Virus record (IMG/VR): IMGVR_UViG_3300045972_000802 | Coordinates: 1 to 42,114 of that record | Reading direction: 5' to 3' (one strand) | From: a virus | DNA length: 42,114 bases | Part shown: in pieces, positions 5,263 to 15,496 of the stretch | Position numbering within the stretch: the stretch's first letter is position 1 | Layout: the number at the start of each line of letters is the position of its first letter | The notes under the pieces: generated by a model | Told to the model about the DNA's origin: nothing | Seen by the model: the letters and a program-made list of their open reading frames with translations, nothing else | The model's database searches: none | Translations under genes and position numbers: made by a program

Positions 5263-5550
5263 ATGATTGGTAAAAAATGCATGGTTCGGACGTATAGCGC
5301 AGGGGTATTCGCTGGTGTTGTCAAGGCTCAGAGCGGTAAAGAGGCGGTTTTAACAGATGCCCGCCGCATATGGTATTGGCGTGGTGCGGCTTCACTTTCT
5401 CAGTTGGCCACGGAAGGGACGTCCAAACCTTCTGAATGCAAATTCCCTGTCGCCGTGCCTGAAGTTTTTTTGTCTGAGGTTATTGAGATTATCCCAATGA
5501 CTGAGCAGGCCATTAAATCTATTGATGAGGTCCCAATATGGAAGAACTGA
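5263..5550 (+). CDS. DUF6948-like phage protein, 95 aa
   Basis: The start is ATG 5263, 6 nt after AAGGAG at 5251; a GTG at 5260 is too close. The pattern VRTYSAGVFAG, then LTDARRIWYW, then a C-terminal ending in VPIW is what I remember from a widespread family of small phage proteins (DUF6948 type) of unknown role. Its end overlaps the Gly-Ser/Asp/Tyr repeat gene by 13 nt. From memory, this family and such repeat tracts are often neighbours or fused, which would make this pair a functional unit. Confidence 0.65.
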   Translation: MIGKKCMVRTYSAGVFAGVVKAQSGKEAVLTDARRIWYWRGAASLSQLATEGTSKPSECKFPVAVPEVFLSEVIEIIPMTEQAIKSIDEVPIWKN

Positions 5551-6116
5551 CCCCCACCCCCCAAGCCGCTGCGCTGGAGGTATCCTCCGGCTACGGCTCC
5601 GGCGACGGCTCCGGCTACGGCGACGGCTCCGGCGACGGCTCCGGCTACGGCGACGGCTCCGGCGACGGCTACGGCTCCGGCGACGGCTCCGGCTACGGCT
5701 CCGGCGACGGCTCCGGCTACGGCGACGGCTCCGGCGACGGCTACGGCTCCGGCGACGGCTCCGGCTACGGCTACGGCGACGGCTCCGGCGACGGCTCCGG
5801 CTACGGCGACGGCTCCGGCGACGGCTCCGGCTCCGGCTACGGCGACGGCTCCGGCTCCGGCGACGGCTCCGGCTACGGCGACGGCTCCGGCTACGGCTAC
5901 GGCGACGGCTCCGGCGACGGCGACGGCTCCGGCGACGGCTCCGGCTCCGGCGACGGCTCCGGCTACGGCTACGGCGACGGCTCCGGCTACGGCGACGGCT
6001 CCGGCTACGGCTACGGCGACGGCTCCGGCGACGGCTCCGGCTCCGGCGACGGCTCCGGCGACGGCTCCGGCTCCGGCGACGGCTACGGCTCCGGCTACGG
6101 CTACGGCGACGGCTAA
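5538..6116 (+). CDS. Low-complexity Gly-Ser/Asp/Tyr repeat protein, 192 aa
   Basis: After a 15-residue leader (MEELTPTPQAAALEV) the rest of the protein is strict alternation of Gly with Ser, Asp or Tyr, as in GSGDGSGYGD, to the stop. Every second codon is GGC and the others are only TCC, GAC or TAC. Start ATG 5538 has GATGAGG upstream and overlaps the DUF6948-like gene. Such a chain should be disordered and acidic, with regularly spaced tyrosines that could drive multivalent contacts. Other frames across the tract are open only because of the repeat. Role unknown. Confidence 0.6.
   Translation: MEELTPTPQAAALEVSSGYGSGDGSGYGDGSGDGSGYGDGSGDGYGSGDGSGYGSGDGSGYGDGSGDGYGSGDGSGYGYGDGSGDGSGYGDGSGDGSGSGYGDGSGSGDGSGYGDGSGYGYGDGSGDGDGSGDGSGSGDGSGYGYGDGSGYGDGSGYGYGDGSGDGSGSGDGSGDGSGSGDGYGSGYGYGDG
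5584..6113 (+). repeat. Hexanucleotide repeat tract of GGC-NNC units
   Basis: About 530 bp consist of consecutive 6-bp units GGCTCC, GGCGAC and GGCTAC in irregular order, in the frame of the repeat protein. Larger duplicated blocks (for example the run encoding GDGSGDGSGYGD) recur, as expected if the tract grows and shrinks by slippage or unequal recombination. Only three non-Gly codons are used, each reachable from another by one or two base changes. The tract is a likely site of length variation between relatives. Confidence 0.85.
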
Positions 6117-7811: not shown

Positions 7812-7832
7812 GAGGGGTCGTTATCGGGATTC

Positions 7833-8128
7833 TGTCCGGGATGTCCGGGATGTCCGGGCACAATAAAGCGACCCCGGACACGGTAAAGCCCCATAAACAA
7901 AGCGTTGGGGCAGTCTGTCCGGGATGTCCGGGCAGTTTTGAACTCCCAACGTGTGCGCGTATGCGCGTGTGTCTGTAATTGGTATCACTGAGCAAGAGTA
8001 GTTTATCGCCTTGGGAGTTTATTTTTCCCCGGACATCCCGGACAAGAAAGAAAAGTAGTTGATTTTGTTTTAAAAAAGTCTGTCCGGGGTGTGGAAATTT
8101 GACCGGACATCCCGGACAAGCCCGGACA
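7833..8128. repeat. Candidate replication origin: twelve TGTCCGGG boxes in both orientations
   Basis: The 330 bp between the helicase and the next gene hold TGTCCGGG at 7833, 7842, 7851, 7916, 7925 and 8081. The reverse form CCCGGACA is at 7873, 8028, 8037, 8111 and 8121, plus one copy with a single mismatch at 8102. Neighbouring copies are spaced exactly 9 bp. The stretch also has a 9-bp inverted repeat, AACTCCCAA at 7941-7949 and TTGGGAGTT at 8011-8019, and a TGCGCGTATGCGCG motif between its arms. An AT-rich patch (GATTTTGTTTTAAAAAA) follows at 8061. Iteron-like arrays next to a D5/P4 helicase gene are typical of origins; an operator array is the alternative. Confidence 0.6.
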
Positions 8129-9618: not shown

Positions 9619-11379
9619 ATGGAAAACACATTTAAGATGATCCCGATTAACCGGCTGGAGATGAATGACTACAACATCCGGCGCTTTGAAGACAACATGA
9701 CGCCACAGCGACAGGCCCGCTTCGACGAACTCACCGAATCCATCCGCTCCGTCGGCATCCTGGAGCCGTTGATCGTCCGCCCCAACGGCTTTGATAAATT
9801 CGAAATCATCGCTGGCGAACGGCGGTATCGCTCTGCCAAAACTGTCGCTGCCGATGATGCCGCCTATGAAGTCCCGTGCATGATCCGTGACGTCAATGAA
9901 GTCGACGCCTTCGACCTCATGCTCGTGGAAAACCTGCAGCGTGACGACCTCACACCATTCGAAACCGCCACCGCCTTCAGGGAATACATGACTCGCCACG
10001 CTAACACCACCGGTGCCGTCTCTGACCTTTCCCTCCGGACCGGAATACCTGTGCACGCCATCCGCCGAATGGTGAGACTCCTCGATCTCCCCTCCGAGGT
10101 CCTCAGCGCCTGGCGTGATGGCATACTATCCCAATCCCACGCCGAACTCTTCACCCGGGTTGGTGACTCCGGACAAATCAGCGAACTGTTGGCCCTCTGC
10201 CTGAGGATGAAACTCTCCACCCGCGACCTGGCCGAACGCATTGGCGCCATCGCCTGTGAACTTGACCGCGGATTCTTCGACAAAACCGACTGCCAGACCT
10301 GCCCGGATAACACCTCCGTCCAGTCCGGACTCTTCTCTGACATTGTCCCTGCAGGGAAATGCGGCAACCCGAAATGCTTTGAAGAAAAACAGGCTGCCTT
10401 CCTCACCGCCTACTGGTCCCACAGTAAAGCCGCCAAAATGTTCGGGACCTGCGGATTCCGCTTTGGCCACCGCCTGGAACCTGAACACCGGGAGCTGCGG
10501 GATAACGAACAAGTTGCCGATCGCTGCCTTGATTGTGACGCCTTCATCTCTGTCCTGCGTACCACCGGCGCCGTCGTCTCCGGCTACTCTCGCACCTGCG
10601 TTGGCCCGCGTCCCTGTTTCGATGCCCTCTATCGTGAAGAACCAGCTCCGGAACCGGATACCAAAGAAACAATCGAAGAACCATCAGGCCAGGATCCTCC
10701 TGCAGGAGAAACATCACCGCCTCCGACAGCAGCCGCACCGACAAAAACAGCACCGAAACCGGCAGCAGCCGCGAAATTGGAACCCAAAAAACCCGCAGCT
10801 ACCGACTCGGGCCCTGTCTATGATGCCGCCCGGGGAGAACGTGCCCGCCGTGCCTTCATCAAAGACCGCCTCATGAATACCGGGGCGGAAACAATATCCT
10901 ATCGCCTCGGCCTGCTTGCCCTCACGCTCTACTCTGCCTCGGCCCGCAACTACATGTGTGACCTCCTCGGTCTCGGTAACGGTGCCGTTGCCACCAAAAT
11001 AGCCGAAGCCATCTTCGAAATACCCGGCGATGATCTCTACTCGACTATGCGCTGCGCCGCCACTGCCAGCATCATTGCCGATCCAACGCCAGACGTCTGG
11101 CAATTCGCCGCCGATCGCTTCGGAATTGAACTGGAACACGACTGGGCCTTCACCGAAACCTACTTGTCCGGACTCAATAAAAGTGAAATCGTCCGTATTG
11201 GAGAAGAACCGGGAGTCGGCATCTGGACCGACGGCAAAGCAATCGAATACCGTGAGCAGCACCACCACGGCAAAGCCCTCATGGCCCTCAAGAAAGAAGA
11301 ACTCATCGACATTATCATCAATAGCGGCGCCGAACTGATCGGCCGCGTACCGCAAGAAATCATCGGCAAGCGGGCCTAA
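9619..11379 (+). CDS. PRTRC-type ParB family protein, 586 aa
   Basis: ParB-related founder member of the PRTRC (ParB-Related, ThiF-Related Cassette) system. The ParB/sulfiredoxin-like N-domain has AGERRYRSAK at residues 65-74 (the CTP-binding box in true ParB) and ENLQRDDLTPFE at 104-115. A KorB/ParB helix-turn-helix follows at about 135-155. Downstream come the zinc-type motifs CQTC (225-228), C248, C253 and CLDC near 303-306, which I recall as characteristic of the PRTRC ParB group. Next is a Pro/Ala/Thr-rich linker (about 340-400) and a C-terminal domain of unknown fold. ATG 9619 is chosen over an in-frame TTG at 9604 because GGAG sits 6-7 nt before it. No ParA partner is seen. Confidence 0.8.
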   Translation: MENTFKMIPINRLEMNDYNIRRFEDNMTPQRQARFDELTESIRSVGILEPLIVRPNGFDKFEIIAGERRYRSAKTVAADDAAYEVPCMIRDVNEVDAFDLMLVENLQRDDLTPFETATAFREYMTRHANTTGAVSDLSLRTGIPVHAIRRMVRLLDLPSEVLSAWRDGILSQSHAELFTRVGDSGQISELLALCLRMKLSTRDLAERIGAIACELDRGFFDKTDCQTCPDNTSVQSGLFSDIVPAGKCGNPKCFEEKQAAFLTAYWSHSKAAKMFGTCGFRFGHRLEPEHRELRDNEQVADRCLDCDAFISVLRTTGAVVSGYSRTCVGPRPCFDALYREEPAPEPDTKETIEEPSGQDPPAGETSPPPTAAAPTKTAPKPAAAAKLEPKKPAATDSGPVYDAARGERARRAFIKDRLMNTGAETISYRLGLLALTLYSASARNYMCDLLGLGNGAVATKIAEAIFEIPGDDLYSTMRCAATASIIADPTPDVWQFAADRFGIELEHDWAFTETYLSGLNKSEIVRIGEEPGVGIWTDGKAIEYREQHHHGKALMALKKEELIDIIINSGAELIGRVPQEIIGKRA

Positions 11380-11382
11380 CCC

Positions 11383-12447
11383 ATGTCTGCCTCCCTGCTC
11401 ATAACCCGCATTAGTGATGCATTGGCTGCCGGGTCCCTTAAACAGGTACCCGACAGTGCCGCCTTCGCCACCGTCACCACCATGGCTGATCTGCTGCGCC
11501 CCTGGGAAGAAATGTTCCCCGGTGTCGAGCGCTATGGTGATGATGACGCCCGGGATATTTTCAGCAGGGGTGGCGGACTGCGTGAACCGATACTCACAGC
11601 CCGGTTACGTACCAGCCGCCGGCCGCTGCCGCCACCGCGACCCATTGCCGCATCTCCCAAAACCATAAGCCCCGTACTCTTCGCCTCCATTCAGGCCATC
11701 TGGGACTATTACCAGCTGCACCACCTGGCTGATGCGCTCATCCTGAAGAACGCCTTCACTGAAACCGGTATCTATAAATTTGTTGGACCGCTGGAGCTCC
11801 ACGTATCAGGCTACTGGCCCCTTGGAACCCCGCTGGAAATGATCTGCGATGAATGCGAACCCCGCGAACTCTACGGAATTCACCTGCAATTACCCTTTTA
11901 TACCTACGATTGCGAGGAATCCGGAGTTGTCGAAGCCTTCCTCTCCGATATTGAATCAGTCGCCAGCTGTCTCGACGCTGTCTATGACTCAGCCAACTGC
12001 CTCGATAAAGACAACGAACTCATCACCCAGGTCGGCATCATGCCGCTGGTTAAAAACTACGAACTCTATCGCGGCGCCAAAACCGTCAACTTTGACAAGC
12101 TCCTCTACGGAGGACTTGACGTTATCTTCGGACCGGTCACCGAGCGCTACCCGGTCCACATGAAACACGGCCAGCCGATCATCTCCGGAGACCATGGCCA
12201 GGATTGTGAAATCATCATCACCAGCCGTGAAGACATCGAATTCTGTCTGGACTATGCCAAGGCCTGGTATGAAATGACCTCCTGCCTGCCGGAACCATAC
12301 GACCTGGCCATCAATGCCGGTGGTATGGCTGACGAACTCATCCATGAAATCTGCAACGTCTGGCGCAAAACCAACAACAAGCGCCCCATTAAATGGACCA
12401 GCCCACTCCGTATCCGTGAAAACGTCCAGATAAGGATCCAGTCATGA
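11383..12447 (+). CDS. PRTRC protein F-like, 354 aa
   Basis: It lies 3 bp after the ParB gene and overlaps the E2-like gene by 4 nt (ATGA). Position and length fit PRTRC system protein F, which stands between the ParB and B genes in the plasmid cassettes I remember. The sequence is mixed alpha/beta with no enzyme motif that I recognise; an acidic N-terminus is followed by a PPPRP linker near residue 85. The function of protein F is not known. The assignment rests mainly on context; a remote homology search would decide it. Confidence 0.55.
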   Translation: MSASLLITRISDALAAGSLKQVPDSAAFATVTTMADLLRPWEEMFPGVERYGDDDARDIFSRGGGLREPILTARLRTSRRPLPPPRPIAASPKTISPVLFASIQAIWDYYQLHHLADALILKNAFTETGIYKFVGPLELHVSGYWPLGTPLEMICDECEPRELYGIHLQLPFYTYDCEESGVVEAFLSDIESVASCLDAVYDSANCLDKDNELITQVGIMPLVKNYELYRGAKTVNFDKLLYGGLDVIFGPVTERYPVHMKHGQPIISGDHGQDCEIIITSREDIEFCLDYAKAWYEMTSCLPEPYDLAINAGGMADELIHEICNVWRKTNNKRPIKWTSPLRIRENVQIRIQS

Positions 12448-13079
12448 CAGAAACATTGCAAAAACAACTCTATGGCATCGGTATCTTCGAAGAAGAAATC
12501 GTCCTCAGTGACTTCACCGGCGCTGCTGAAAAGCGCTTTGTTGTCTCTCCAGAACAACTCATGGCCTTCGTCAGCACTGATGTCACCTTCAGACCCTTTC
12601 CCGGACTGATCTGGATGCAGAAAAACCAGCAAGTAGACACCTACCTGCTGCTGCTTTCGGCCGGCAAGCGCACCATCCTCTATCGTAAAGGCAAAAAACT
12701 GGTGGATTACCCCGTCACTCTGCCGCCAATTGCCGTACGGGCTCAAATAAGCGCATCAGAACACAAAATCACCAAAATCGATATGTGGGGCATGGCCGGC
12801 AAACAACTCACCGAAGCAACCATGCTCTATGAACTCCCCCTGCCGAACCTTACTGGATCAAACCTCTGCCTCGGCTCCACCGGCATCATCGCGGGTGATG
12901 ACATCCCTGCAGCCGTGCAAACCGCCATCTTCGACACGCCGTTCAACCATCACAACTATCTGGTCGGCAAAAAAGCCATCCCCTTCCACGACTACGTCAA
13001 AAAATATCGGGGCAGTTGCCCGCTGCGCACCTTAAAACCGATCGAAGCCGCTGCAAAACTTCTGCGAGGTCTCAAATGA
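12444..13079 (+). CDS. PRTRC protein B, prokaryotic E2-like conjugating enzyme, 211 aa
   Basis: The C-terminal half carries the signature of the prokaryotic E2 family D that includes PRTRC protein B: a LYELPLPNL segment at residues 128-136, then NLCLGST with the candidate active-site cysteine C142, then a FDTPFNHHNY segment near residues 163-172. In E2 enzymes this cysteine accepts the ubiquitin-like protein from the E1 as a thioester. The N-terminal half is a strand-rich region with KRTILYRKGKK. The gene is coupled to its neighbours by ATGA overlaps on both sides, so E2 and E1 should be made together. The thiol transfer role is inferred from the family. Confidence 0.75.
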   Translation: MTETLQKQLYGIGIFEEEIVLSDFTGAAEKRFVVSPEQLMAFVSTDVTFRPFPGLIWMQKNQQVDTYLLLLSAGKRTILYRKGKKLVDYPVTLPPIAVRAQISASEHKITKIDMWGMAGKQLTEATMLYELPLPNLTGSNLCLGSTGIIAGDDIPAAVQTAIFDTPFNHHNYLVGKKAIPFHDYVKKYRGSCPLRTLKPIEAAAKLLRGLK

Positions 13080-13825
13080 TGTCACAAAACCGGAAAACCT
13101 ACATCGCACCGCACTTTTCCCGCATCGTCATCATGGGCGTCGGTGGTACCGGCAGCTATCTGGCCCAAGGCCTGGCCAAACTGTTCGCCGGATATCAACT
13201 CGAACTGGACGTAGTTCTGGTGGATCCCGACACCATTGAAGAAAAAAACTGCAGTCGGCAGAACTTCCAGTCCTGGGAGATCGGCCAACCCAAAGCACAC
13301 GCCCTGGCGTACCGACTCAACCAGCAATACGGCACTTCCTTTGCGGGGTTGCATGACTTCGGCGATCGCATCATTTCACCAACTCAACACCATGACCGCC
13401 TGGTGATCAGCTGCGTCGATACCGTCGAGGCCCGCAAACCCCTTCGTGACAGCGGCTATTGGCTGGACCTCGGCAACGGCCAGGAAACCGGACAGGCAAT
13501 CTACGGCTCCACGTCCGAAACCGCCAAACTGAAAACAGAACTGAAAAAATGGGATACCACCCCCACTGTTGGACATCTCCCCAGCCCCTATGTTGTCGCC
13601 GGCATGGCTAAACTGAAAACATCCAAGAAAAAAGCGCCCTCCTGCGCCGATACACCCTTTGCTGAGCAAGGCATATTTGCCAACGAATGGGCCGCTACTG
13701 CCGGACTGGCCATCCTGCACCAGCTGCTCATTAAAGGGCAACTCACCATCCCGGCAATCTACTTCGACACCAGCCGGGGGCGCATGACTCCGGAATACAT
13801 CACCAGGGAATATCTCAACCAATAA
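13076..13825 (+). CDS. PRTRC ThiF/E1-like adenylating enzyme, 249 aa
   Basis: A Rossmann-type ThiF/MoeB/E1 enzyme that should adenylate the C-terminus of the ubiquitin-like partner. Visible motifs are the nucleotide loop GVGGTGS (residues 21-27), VDPDTIEEKN (D50 and D52), SRQNF with R61 and Q62, and the catalytic-region aspartate in ISCVDT (D115). Near the end, PSCADTPFAEQGIFAN (C190) is the PRTRC-type cysteine segment. The zinc-binding CxxC pairs of full-length MoeB are absent, as in other short PRTRC ThiF proteins. ATG 13076 (ATGA overlap, GAGG 6 nt upstream) is preferred to an in-frame non-ATG start at 13016. Confidence 0.85.
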   Translation: MMSQNRKTYIAPHFSRIVIMGVGGTGSYLAQGLAKLFAGYQLELDVVLVDPDTIEEKNCSRQNFQSWEIGQPKAHALAYRLNQQYGTSFAGLHDFGDRIISPTQHHDRLVISCVDTVEARKPLRDSGYWLDLGNGQETGQAIYGSTSETAKLKTELKKWDTTPTVGHLPSPYVVAGMAKLKTSKKKAPSCADTPFAEQGIFANEWAATAGLAILHQLLIKGQLTIPAIYFDTSRGRMTPEYITREYLNQ

Positions 13826-13854
13826 AAAGCCCTCAAAGGCACAAGGAGCAACAC

Positions 13855-14019
13855 ATGGACAACCCAATTCTTGATGACATTATGAAATACGCAGCCAAGC
13901 GACTCACGGACGCATACGGATATTGCGGTGTGGCTTCCGGTCCCGACATGGCCATGCTCAATTGTGACGATAAAAAGGGTCATGACTTCATCATTACCAT
14001 CAAATCCAAACCGGAATAA
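13855..14019 (+). CDS. Small hypothetical protein in the PRTRC-like cassette, 54 aa
   Basis: ATG 13855 is preceded by AAGGAGCAACAC, a strong ribosome site, and the frame runs to TAA 14017. The product is helical at the N-terminus (PILDDIMKYAAKRL) and ends in a strand (HDFIITIKSKPE), with cysteines at 24 and 37. It could be a small alpha/beta adaptor. I know of no family. Its place between the E1-like and ubiquitin-like genes makes it a candidate partner or substrate of the conjugation pathway. Confidence 0.55.
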   Translation: MDNPILDDIMKYAAKRLTDAYGYCGVASGPDMAMLNCDDKKGHDFIITIKSKPE

Positions 14020-14050
14020 CTGGCCCCTGTGGCAGTAAAGGAGCGACACC

Positions 14051-14362
14051 ATGGCAGAAACCCGCGTCCAAATAGCCTATCACTTCAAAACCGACCCGGC
14101 AAAACTCAGCGCCGGCACCAGCATCGATCGGATCCCGCTTCCGGAACAAATCACCCGCACCGTCTCCGTCGGGGCGGAACTGAAAACCGAAAAAGTTTCC
14201 ATCGATACCCTTTCACCCTGGGACCGCACGGCTCTGCGCGAAATGCTCCATGCCCAGGTAAAAGAAGCCACTCGCACGGCACGTCCCGCCGGATCTCCAG
14301 CACCAACCAGCGCCGGGCCGGATGCAGATGACGCCGCCGACGATGAAATCAGCGCTTTTTAG
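14051..14362 (+). CDS. Hypothetical protein in the PRTRC-like cassette (possible E counterpart), 103 aa
   Basis: Start ATG 14051 follows AAAGGAGCGACACC. The first 80 residues look alpha/beta (VQIAYHFKTD, then a helix DRTALREMLHAQVKEA); the C-terminus is a Pro/Ala/Asp-rich acidic tail ending DDAADDEISAF. By position it could fill the slot of PRTRC protein E, but I see no convincing sequence match, so I leave it as a cassette-linked unknown. A second frame across the same DNA is a shadow. Confidence 0.55.
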   Translation: MAETRVQIAYHFKTDPAKLSAGTSIDRIPLPEQITRTVSVGAELKTEKVSIDTLSPWDRTALREMLHAQVKEATRTARPAGSPAPTSAGPDADDAADDEISAF

Positions 14363-14398
14363 CGCCGCAACCGTACAAAACCAGAAACGAGGGAAAGC

Positions 14399-14584
14399 AT
14401 GAGCGAAAAAACAGACATCATCATCAAATTTGAAGGGCGCGAATACAACGTCCCGGTTGGCTTCACCGCAGAAGAATTCGTTGACAGCCTGGCCGCCACC
14501 AACCCGAAGGCCGCCACGGCAAAACTGATCAAGGATAGCGCCGGGGTTTATACCCTCAAACCGCAGTACCAGGACAAGGGGTGA
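14399..14584 (+). CDS. PRTRC protein C-like ubiquitin-fold protein, 61 aa
   Basis: Predicted ubiquitin-like modifier of the cassette. It has the length and pattern of PRTRC protein C (prokaryotic ubiquitin, Prok_Ub type). Two beta strands (IIIKFEGREYNVPV) are followed by the helix AEEFVDSLAA, the conserved NPKAATA turn (NP-x-L/A-x-x-A in the family), and two strands ending in YQDKG. The last residue is Gly61, so the C-terminus is already the glycine an E1 needs and no trimming protease is required. It starts at ATG 14399 after GAGGGAAAGC. Conjugation activity is inferred, not shown. Confidence 0.7.
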   Translation: MSEKTDIIIKFEGREYNVPVGFTAEEFVDSLAATNPKAATAKLIKDSAGVYTLKPQYQDKG

Positions 14585-14857: not shown

Positions 14858-15496
14858 ATGGCAGAGCTTGTAAAATGCCCCTTTTGTGGAGCTGATGCCT
14901 ATGTGGTCACCAGTCCTGACAAATCATGCACATCAGAATGGTACATGATCACCTGCGCTGCCTCAGTCTCCGGAGACTTTACCGACAGCTGCCCGGCCTG
15001 GCCGGAAACATCATGGTACCCGGACAAACAGCAGGCGGAATCAGATTGGAATGCCGGGAAATACGACAACGATGACGGAATGGTCACAATCGAAGTTAAA
15101 GGAGCCGACACGATGGCACGACAAAATATAAAATTCAGATCGTGGGATGAATCAGGGAACCGGATGATCTATGACGATTTCATTGTCTACTATGAAGGCG
15201 GCCGCTTGTTCTCTGGCCTGACTAAACCAAACGAAGATTGGACCGAACCGGTGTTACTCCAATCCACCGGATTGAAGGACAAGCACGGCAATGAGATTTT
15301 TGAGGACGACATTGTCAGACTGCGTACAGCCGAGATAACGAACAGCGCCACGCCTTTCAGGTGGAGTGGCACCAGGAAGGCGGACAATGGGTTTTCACTC
15401 CCTTTGAACTCGGTAATGCTGATGCGCCGTTGCTTGGTATCGAAGAATTCTCCCATACCTGGGAGGATCGTATTTCAGACGATGAACCGGAAATAA
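14858..15496 (+). CDS. Lar-like zinc ribbon read in frame into a truncated YopX protein, 212 aa
   Basis: Residues 1-85 resemble the Lar-type (restriction alleviation) zinc-ribbon family: KCPFCG at 6-11, a central cysteine, and SDWNAGKY near the end (SWNRR in typical members). Residues 86-155 are the start of a YopX protein (KFRSWDESGNRMIYDDF, then LLQSTGLKDKHGNEIFEDDI). A strong ribosome site (AAAGGAG, 15098-15104) and ATG 15113 lie at the joint, so YopX may be made separately. After residue 155 the YopX sequence leaves this frame: the last 57 residues here are out-of-frame translation. See the fragment at 15325. Confidence 0.55.
   Translation: MAELVKCPFCGADAYVVTSPDKSCTSEWYMITCAASVSGDFTDSCPAWPETSWYPDKQQAESDWNAGKYDNDDGMVTIEVKGADTMARQNIKFRSWDESGNRMIYDDFIVYYEGGRLFSGLTKPNEDWTEPVLLQSTGLKDKHGNEIFEDDIVRLRTAEITNSATPFRWSGTRKADNGFSLPLNSVMLMRRCLVSKNSPIPGRIVFQTMNRK
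15098..15104 (+). promoter_or_regulatory. Internal ribosome site for YopX start at 15113
   Basis: AAAGGAG lies 8 nt before ATG 15113, in frame with the upstream Lar-like zinc-ribbon reading. Known YopX proteins begin at the equivalent of this methionine, so the site suggests that YopX was originally an independent gene and that the two frames are joined only because no stop codon separates them. Confidence 0.55.

Follow-up and report, generated by a model that had tools for sequence, protein, structure and literature searches.

A phage-borne PRTRC-like cassette that lacks a JAB peptidase and encodes a putative ubiquitin-like protein ending at its conserved glycine

The closest described relatives of the gene cassette treated here are the PRTRC system (TIGR03734-TIGR03738 and related families), for example on plasmid 1 of Aromatoleum aromaticum EbN1, where the genes follow the order ParB-E-C-F-B-A-ThiF, and operon type 6d of Iyer, Burroughs and Aravind (2006; PMC1779556), in which a JAB peptidase gene is always adjacent when it is not fused. 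In PRTRC terms B is the E2, ThiF the E1, C the ubiquitin-like protein (Ubl) and A the JAB peptidase. Bil (bacterial ISG15-like) and type II CBASS, with its Cap2 and Cap3, follow an E1-E2-Ubl or E1-E2 logic and also include a JAB. The cassette that we describe lies at positions 9619-14584 of the viral record IMGVR_UViG_3300045972_000802 (42,114 bases, analysed at full length and called the window below). We regard it as probably a phage-borne, JAB-less variant of the PRTRC/type 6d Ubl conjugation systems, working by the mechanism proposed below. Phage-borne PRTRC-like cassettes are already present in public data, since the sequenced Burkholderia phage BgVeeders33 bears nearly the whole PRTRC set; our literature searches, which covered open-licence papers, found none that discusses such cassettes and none that gives a function for PRTRC. 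What is new here is a rearranged phage clade of the PRTRC-like system that lacks JAB and whose Ubl appears to be encoded pre-trimmed.

As in PRTRC, the homologues of ParB, B, ThiF and C form one co-directional operon in the window, but their order is ParB-X-B-ThiF-Y-C, where X and Y stand for proteins of 354 and 103 residues. There is no protein A, E and F are not recognisable, and ParB, ThiF and B score under the NCBI cut-offs, by which the cassette is not a formal PRTRC member. The initial annotation, made by a model from the sequence alone, had called the set complete, which in the PRTRC sense it is not; its claim of a phage-borne PRTRC-like set with an E1, an E2 and a Ubl, each with the residues required for conjugation, holds. 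With type 6d the window shares a stand-alone Ubl ending in Gly, an E1 and an E2 with conserved Cys, a further helical protein and perhaps a conserved His downstream of the E2 Cys, whereas the adjacent JAB of type 6d is missing. BgVeeders33 likewise carries its cassette in a phage and has C, F, B, A and ThiF together with E; unlike the window, it has a JAB and a Ubl 62 residues longer past the KG, and no ParB was found in the stretch. Seven open reading frames (ORFs), closely spaced, in one direction and partly overlapping (by one to four bases at the X/E2 and E2/E1 junctions), were confirmed as annotated, yet only six belong to the conserved set, because, of the relatives, only the near-identical record L002 has the 54-residue ORF; this ORF is probably not part of the system. 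Shine-Dalgarno-like stretches precede the non-overlapping ORFs of the cassette, and promoter and terminator candidates in the window were no more numerous than in shuffled sequence.

The E1 matches TIGR03736 (7.5e-37, 127 bits, below the curated cut-off of 144.75) and ThiF PF00899 (5.7e-12). Its profile aligns with the PRTRC ThiFs of other loci (P 5e-52), in a tree it groups with PRTRC E1s from plasmids and phages, and its PDB profile matches include UBA3 (the NEDD8 E1 catalytic subunit), UBA6, UBA5, MoeB and Cap2. In the alignment neither the fixed positions of the GxGGTG loop nor R60-Q61 nor D114 vary, so that the nucleotide loop, RQ motif and aspartate pointed out in the initial annotation all stand, except that its D115 was off by one and is D114. 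Cys189 is invariant as well, in a catalytic-type PSC(A/S) context, and the motif C[SAGT]x(5-12)Qx(3-5)N occurs in 113 of 117 relatives. The 211-residue E2-like protein matches Prok-E2_D (PF14460; 6e-07, 29.8 bits, above the cut-off of 25), as do its relatives (43/43); against TIGR03737 it reaches 17.6 bits, far under the cut-off of 131.45, and its profile matches PRTRC B of other loci with P 1.1e-14. Cys142 is invariant in all 43 relatives and P94, N135 and G144 are conserved in at least 90%. It is thus the candidate catalytic cysteine, as had been proposed; a second cysteine is present and is not conserved. The segment PN-x(4)-N-L-C-L-G around it resembles the HPN...ICL active-site segment of classical E2s. 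After the Cys the window has FNHHN, and between relatives the His moves by one or two positions. ParB matches PF02195 (4.9e-19), HTH_ParB (8.5e-12) and TIGR03734 (1.6e-52; 178.8 bits, below the curated cut-off of 278.6), and its profile aligns with PRTRC ParBs of other loci (P 2.5e-36); its GERRYR motif we take to be the arginine box of the CTP-binding fold of ParB CTPases. The annotation of these three genes as a PRTRC-type ParB, an E2-like protein and a ThiF/E1-like enzyme was therefore well founded, and the E2-family match whose absence would have told against it lies above threshold.

The 61-residue protein has no Pfam or NCBIfam match even at E 1, PF14454 and TIGR03738 included, and none in PHROGs. 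Since direct library searches fail, we compared it with PRTRC C profile to profile, leaving the window clade out of the reference set. In hhalign the two match at 96.4% (P 1.1e-9) over 56 aligned columns, with a score of 45.3 as against 18.9 for the best of 300 column shuffles, and the alignment is little altered without the last five columns. Among 43 aligned Ubl relatives, 35 match both Prok_Ub and PRTRC C, and the remaining eight equal the size of the window clade in that alignment. AlphaFold2 predicts strand-strand-helix-strand-strand with a flexible tail, which is the beta-grasp order (predicted local distance difference test, pLDDT, 80), and the top PDB matches of the model in Foldseek are ubiquitin-fold domains (probability up to 0.93). 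The protein ends in Lys-Gly, with the terminal Gly invariant. Across the clade it is 79-87% identical, compared with about 61-65% for the E1, which suggests purifying selection and strong constraint. We thus read it as a homologue of Prok_Ub/PRTRC C that has diverged and is predicted to take the ubiquitin fold; a beta-grasp-like Ubl ending in Gly had been annotated, and the profile match on which that assignment was said to depend came from the profile-profile comparison with PRTRC C and not from the direct searches.

Two features went unmentioned in the initial annotation, namely the conserved Cys189 of the E1 and the absence of a JAB peptidase. PRTRC A (JAB, TIGR03735) is absent from the window, from five clade viral records, from plasmid pGSUB1 and from the L092 genome; the same search did recover its four positive controls. 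Two JAB matches in relatives were set aside, that in G007 as a lambda gpK-like tail protein (a JAB motif followed by an NlpC/P60-like part, by sequence reading) and that in G006 as RadC-like. We tabulated 62 non-redundant cassettes of phage, plasmid and genome origin, leaving out one (L119) whose apparent Ubl match is the JAB ORF itself. The Ubl ends exactly at the conserved Gly in all 40 JAB-less cassettes (56/56 with redundant ones counted), whereas in 16 of the 22 JAB-bearing ones it runs 2 to 100 residues past it (Fisher 2.7e-10), and new genomes drawn by E1 alone also fit this pattern. L227, from a further viral and plasmid set, at first looked like a JAB-less counterexample with seven extra residues; this proved an alignment-end artefact, its Ubl ending ...GDRG-stop. 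Vibrio phage D69 encodes three Ubl repeats, each ending TGTKG, beside JAB, E2-like and E1 genes (L122 2394-3185). Because JAB-less Ubls stop at the Gly, JAB-bearing ones are mostly extended and the D69 poly-Ubl adjoins a JAB, JAB would seem to release the Ubl from a precursor; this suggests that JAB matures a pro-Ubl and that the phage encodes its Ubl pre-matured. In the tree, which is unrooted and to which a long-branch warning applies, JAB changes about seven times. There the window clade is joined, with 100/100 support, to phage cassettes that have a JAB and mostly an extended Ubl, which makes loss of JAB in the window clade alongside a pre-matured Ubl plausible.

The clade was collected by viral scans with E1 and Ubl, a genome scan and a plasmid search. 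Besides L002, the full cassette occurs in six further viral records, with a partial one in L091, in a deltaproteobacterial genome contig (L092) that also bears terminase and portal homologues, and on plasmid pGSUB1 of Geoalkalibacter subterraneus. The order ParB-X-E2-E1-Y-Ubl is common to all clade cassettes and all conserved ORFs are intact. On pGSUB1 (242 kb) all the conserved parts are present in the order of the window, the ThiF is 54% identical and, again as in the window, no JAB is found anywhere on the plasmid. It differs in lying on a plasmid, in having one more gene between ParB and X as well as other small inserts, and in that its genes are mostly annotated as hypothetical. The survey for the E1-E2-Ubl trio in other phages, proposed with the initial annotation, thus shows recurrence in further viral records, and phage carriage is not unique to the window. 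More widely, two E1 scans of IMG/VR returned 141 and 103 contigs with relatives, and a ThiF match was found in 381 plasmid records. In genomes of the Silvibacterium phylum (L199-L211, L213, L217-L220) B-A-E1 operons are numerous, with as many as three in one genome, and no PRTRC C could be recognised. JAB and ThiF-like genes also occur in phage crAss001 (gp77-gp76; L123 3274-5672), and JAB, ThiF-like and E2-like genes in Salmonella phage Arash (L124 1519-4539), which suggests that phage-borne Ubl systems are broader than the window clade.

The two remaining conserved proteins are characteristic of the clade. X occurs in every clade cassette and in this clade only, and has no match in Pfam, NCBIfam or PHROGs; it had been described as protein-F-like, a label that we withdraw given an hhalign probability of 0.19% to PRTRC F. 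Y was likewise rejected as PRTRC E (hhalign 0.16%, no sequence similarity), and in PDB profile searches the best matches of X and Y have E 0.08 or worse. The only feature that Y shares with PRTRC E is an analogous C-terminal tip. PRTRC E proteins combine a small domain with a disordered linker, acidic or proline-rich, and often end in a hydrophobic-aromatic tip (TLDLF, QTSLF, VDMY and NLFA are examples); a tip pattern fixed beforehand was present, in a fresh sample, in 21 of 35 non-redundant E proteins versus 0 of 119 other PRTRC proteins. Some PRTRC E tips fit QL[SD]LF, the consensus for binding to the bacterial sliding clamp. Y has a small domain, a disordered linker and an acidic C-terminal tip with a final Phe, and in it and its relatives an acidic stretch precedes the Phe at the end (ELSAF-like). 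In an exploratory comparison this tip resembles a weak clamp motif and an SSB-type tip. On three unrelated plasmids the sliding clamp gene dnaN is annotated no more than ~6 kb away from a PRTRC-like E1 gene (Table 1).

Conjugation chemistry is likely, to judge by homology, conserved residues, gene linkage, the lack of JAB and the exact end of the Ubl. We infer that the E1 would adenylate Gly61 of the Ubl, take the Ubl as a thioester on Cys189 and pass it to Cys142 of the E2, which would conjugate it to a target's amino group. With the Ubl encoded as ending at Gly and no JAB present, a maturation step would not be needed, and without a JAB the cassette would encode no evident reversal of the modification. 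Where the reaction takes place, what it modifies and how it benefits the phage are matters of conjecture. ParB, as a CTP-type clamp, would probably place the reaction on DNA, and Y would probably tether it through its tip to a partner in replication or repair. Likely targets would then be proteins bound to the DNA of the phage or plasmid, namely those of replication or partition and perhaps ParB, with a role in the early, DNA-replication phase. One can extend this to PRTRC as a whole as a replisome-docked tagging system, a doubtful idea: E, or its analogue here, would dock on the sliding clamp or a similar partner by its C-terminal tip, ParB would load the machinery on the element's own DNA, E1 and E2 would put the Ubl on clamp- or DNA-bound proteins, and JAB would be a maturation protease with which the phage clade has dispensed by means of a pre-matured Ubl.

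Several points weigh against a conjugation system of this kind. The E2 structure model is confident (pLDDT 86), yet the Foldseek check envisaged in the initial annotation did not go its way: no E2 was among the PDB matches listed, all of which had E >0.2, and significant structural matches were confined to uncharacterised proteins of a viral library, two or more of which come from phages. For this reason the identity of the E2 rests on family membership and active-site conservation and not on a solved fold. The Foldseek E-values of the Ubl model are individually weak (0.08 and above). Phylogenetic pairing of JAB with Ubl extension gave three supported independent pairs, none in the opposite direction, and was not significant (median p 0.5). 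The DNA-tethering step draws on ParB homology and an exploratory motif, and the literature searches found no biochemistry for any PRTRC system.

One may also consider explanations other than conjugation. The E1-like protein and the Ubl could form a sulfur relay as in ThiF-ThiS or MoeB-MoaD, with a thiocarboxylate used to modify a nucleic acid or cofactor and the E2-like protein as an accessory. ThiF and MoeB do belong to the same superfamily as the E1, the Foldseek search with the E2 model listed no E2, and on several plasmids PRTRC cassettes have PAPS-reductase-family genes nearby (L006 9190-10989, L118 11692-12705, L121 6800-7723, L226 7609-9342), a recurrence that makes a link to sulfur chemistry possible. 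We nevertheless consider a relay unlikely, given the invariant thioester-type cysteine of the E1 and the invariant cysteine of the E2, an almost obligate E1-E2 pairing (the E2 profile is found at 111 of the 116 loci bearing the E1), a Ubl that ends in Lys-Gly and not Gly-Gly, and no sulfur gene recognised among the window genes examined. Alternatively, the ParB core might serve to keep the phage or plasmid in the cell, with the conjugation genes only tuning ParB. Such a partition or maintenance role would fit a ParB that stands first in the operon and is kept throughout the clade, as well as the mainly plasmid-borne occurrence of PRTRC and its listing as a partition system (PMC7466150). However, no ParA of family PF13614 was found in the clade phage records and at least three of these phages have a tyrosine integrase, from which it follows that as lysogens they would need no plasmid partition; some phage PRTRC cassettes, moreover, have no ParB. 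Here too the probability seems low.

Still less probable is counter-defence, in which the phage Ubl or E2 would be a decoy or competitor of a host Ubl defence such as Bil or type II CBASS. Its appeal lies in the report that Bil conjugates a Ubl to the tail proteins of phages (Hor et al. 2024, as cited in PMC13373217) and in the weak similarity of the E1 to E1-E2 and BilD models. The initial annotation had gone further, suggesting that the phage might copy, block or redirect a Bil-type pathway, and we find no support for this other than a general analogy, since the E1 belongs with PRTRC E1s, its best defence-library matches are generic E1-E2 models and its BilD match is weak (4e-5). In PADLOC no part of the window matches the Bil Ubl or E2, only the E1 matching, weakly, to BilD. 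Bil and type II CBASS are host defences built on other E2 and Ubl families, whereas the same cassette type as in the window is common on plasmids and in genomes. Finally, the missing JAB and the lack of a recognisable E or F might be taken as signs of a degenerate plasmid-cassette remnant, functionless in the phage; with conserved ORFs intact, catalytic residues invariant and the Ubl apparently under strong constraint, this is the least credible of the explanations and very improbable indeed.

As to the surroundings of the cassette, the window is, from its gene content, a temperate lambda-like tailed phage, with genes recognised for a CII-type regulator, a Toprim primase, a D5-like primase-helicase, MazG, a GpA terminase, a lambda-family portal, a head protease, capsid protein E, a tape measure and an amidase. 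The cassette sits between the replication (primase/D5 helicase) and packaging (terminase) genes, and helicase and/or terminase homologues also lie beside it in most other records. Between the D5 helicase and the next gene, at 7826-8128, are TGTCCGGG repeats in both orientations; there are 13 TGTCC/GGACA sites in 400 bp where 0.8 are expected. A comparable cluster outside the window was found only in L004, whose D5 helicase is the most similar (4e-92). A role as ParB site was rejected on account of this distribution, and the cluster is a probable phage replication origin. Elsewhere in the window, a 192-residue ORF at 5538-6116 consists almost entirely of Gly-Ser-Gly-Asp/Tyr repeats (12- and 18-base DNA units), and a 212-residue ORF at 14858-15496 combines an Ogr/Lar-like zinc-finger N-terminus with a YopX domain.

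Table 1. Features of the cassette (positions in the window) and dnaN-associated loci elsewhere
Feature	Position	Strand	Basis
ParB, 586 aa, PRTRC-type	9619..11379	+	PF02195, HTH_ParB, TIGR03734
GERRYR box of ParB, residues 66-71	9814..9831	+	Read from sequence
354-aa clade protein (X), position of PRTRC F	11383..12447	+	In all clade cassettes; no detectable similarity to F
E2-like protein (PRTRC B / Prok-E2_D), 211 aa	12444..13079	+	PF14460
E2 candidate catalytic Cys142 in P-N-L-T-G-S-N-L-C-L-G	12867..12869	+	Invariant in 43 sequences
E1 (ThiF family, PRTRC type), 248 aa	13079..13825	+	TIGR03736, PF00899
E1 nucleotide-binding loop G20-V-G-G-T-G25	13136..13153	+	All positions invariant but residue 21
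E1 candidate thioester Cys189 (APSCADTPFAEQGIFANEW)	13643..13645	+	Invariant in E1 alignment
54-aa ORF	13855..14019	+	In window and near-identical L002 only
103-aa protein (Y) beside Ubl, place of PRTRC E	14051..14362	+	Conserved in 9 clade members
EISAF, C-terminal tip of 103-aa protein	14345..14359	+	Phe-ending tip in 9/9 clade members
Putative ubiquitin-like protein, 61 aa, C-terminus ...QYQDKG	14399..14584	+	hhalign, AlphaFold2, Foldseek
Terminal Gly61 codon, stop next, no C-terminal extension to remove	14579..14581	+	Sequence; Gly invariant in 43 sequences
Loci with dnaN near PRTRC-like E1	L119 875-2035; L120 4696-6036; L227 10497-11606		Annotation

PRTRC cassettes are carried by hundreds of plasmids and many phages. 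In the clade described here the system is pared down to ParB, E1, E2, the Ubl and the clade's own X and Y, a minimal form well suited to reconstitution. The analysis also leads to predictions for the family as a whole, that JAB matures the Ubl at the KG and that PRTRC E docks by its C-terminal tip. The predicted tryptic remnant on a conjugated target would be a single Gly (+57.02 Da), equal in mass to carbamidomethylation, an identity that could explain why conjugates went unnoticed in routine proteomics. If the replisome-docked reading were true, PRTRC would be a bacterial counterpart of the ubiquitination of PCNA or chromatin in eukaryotes.

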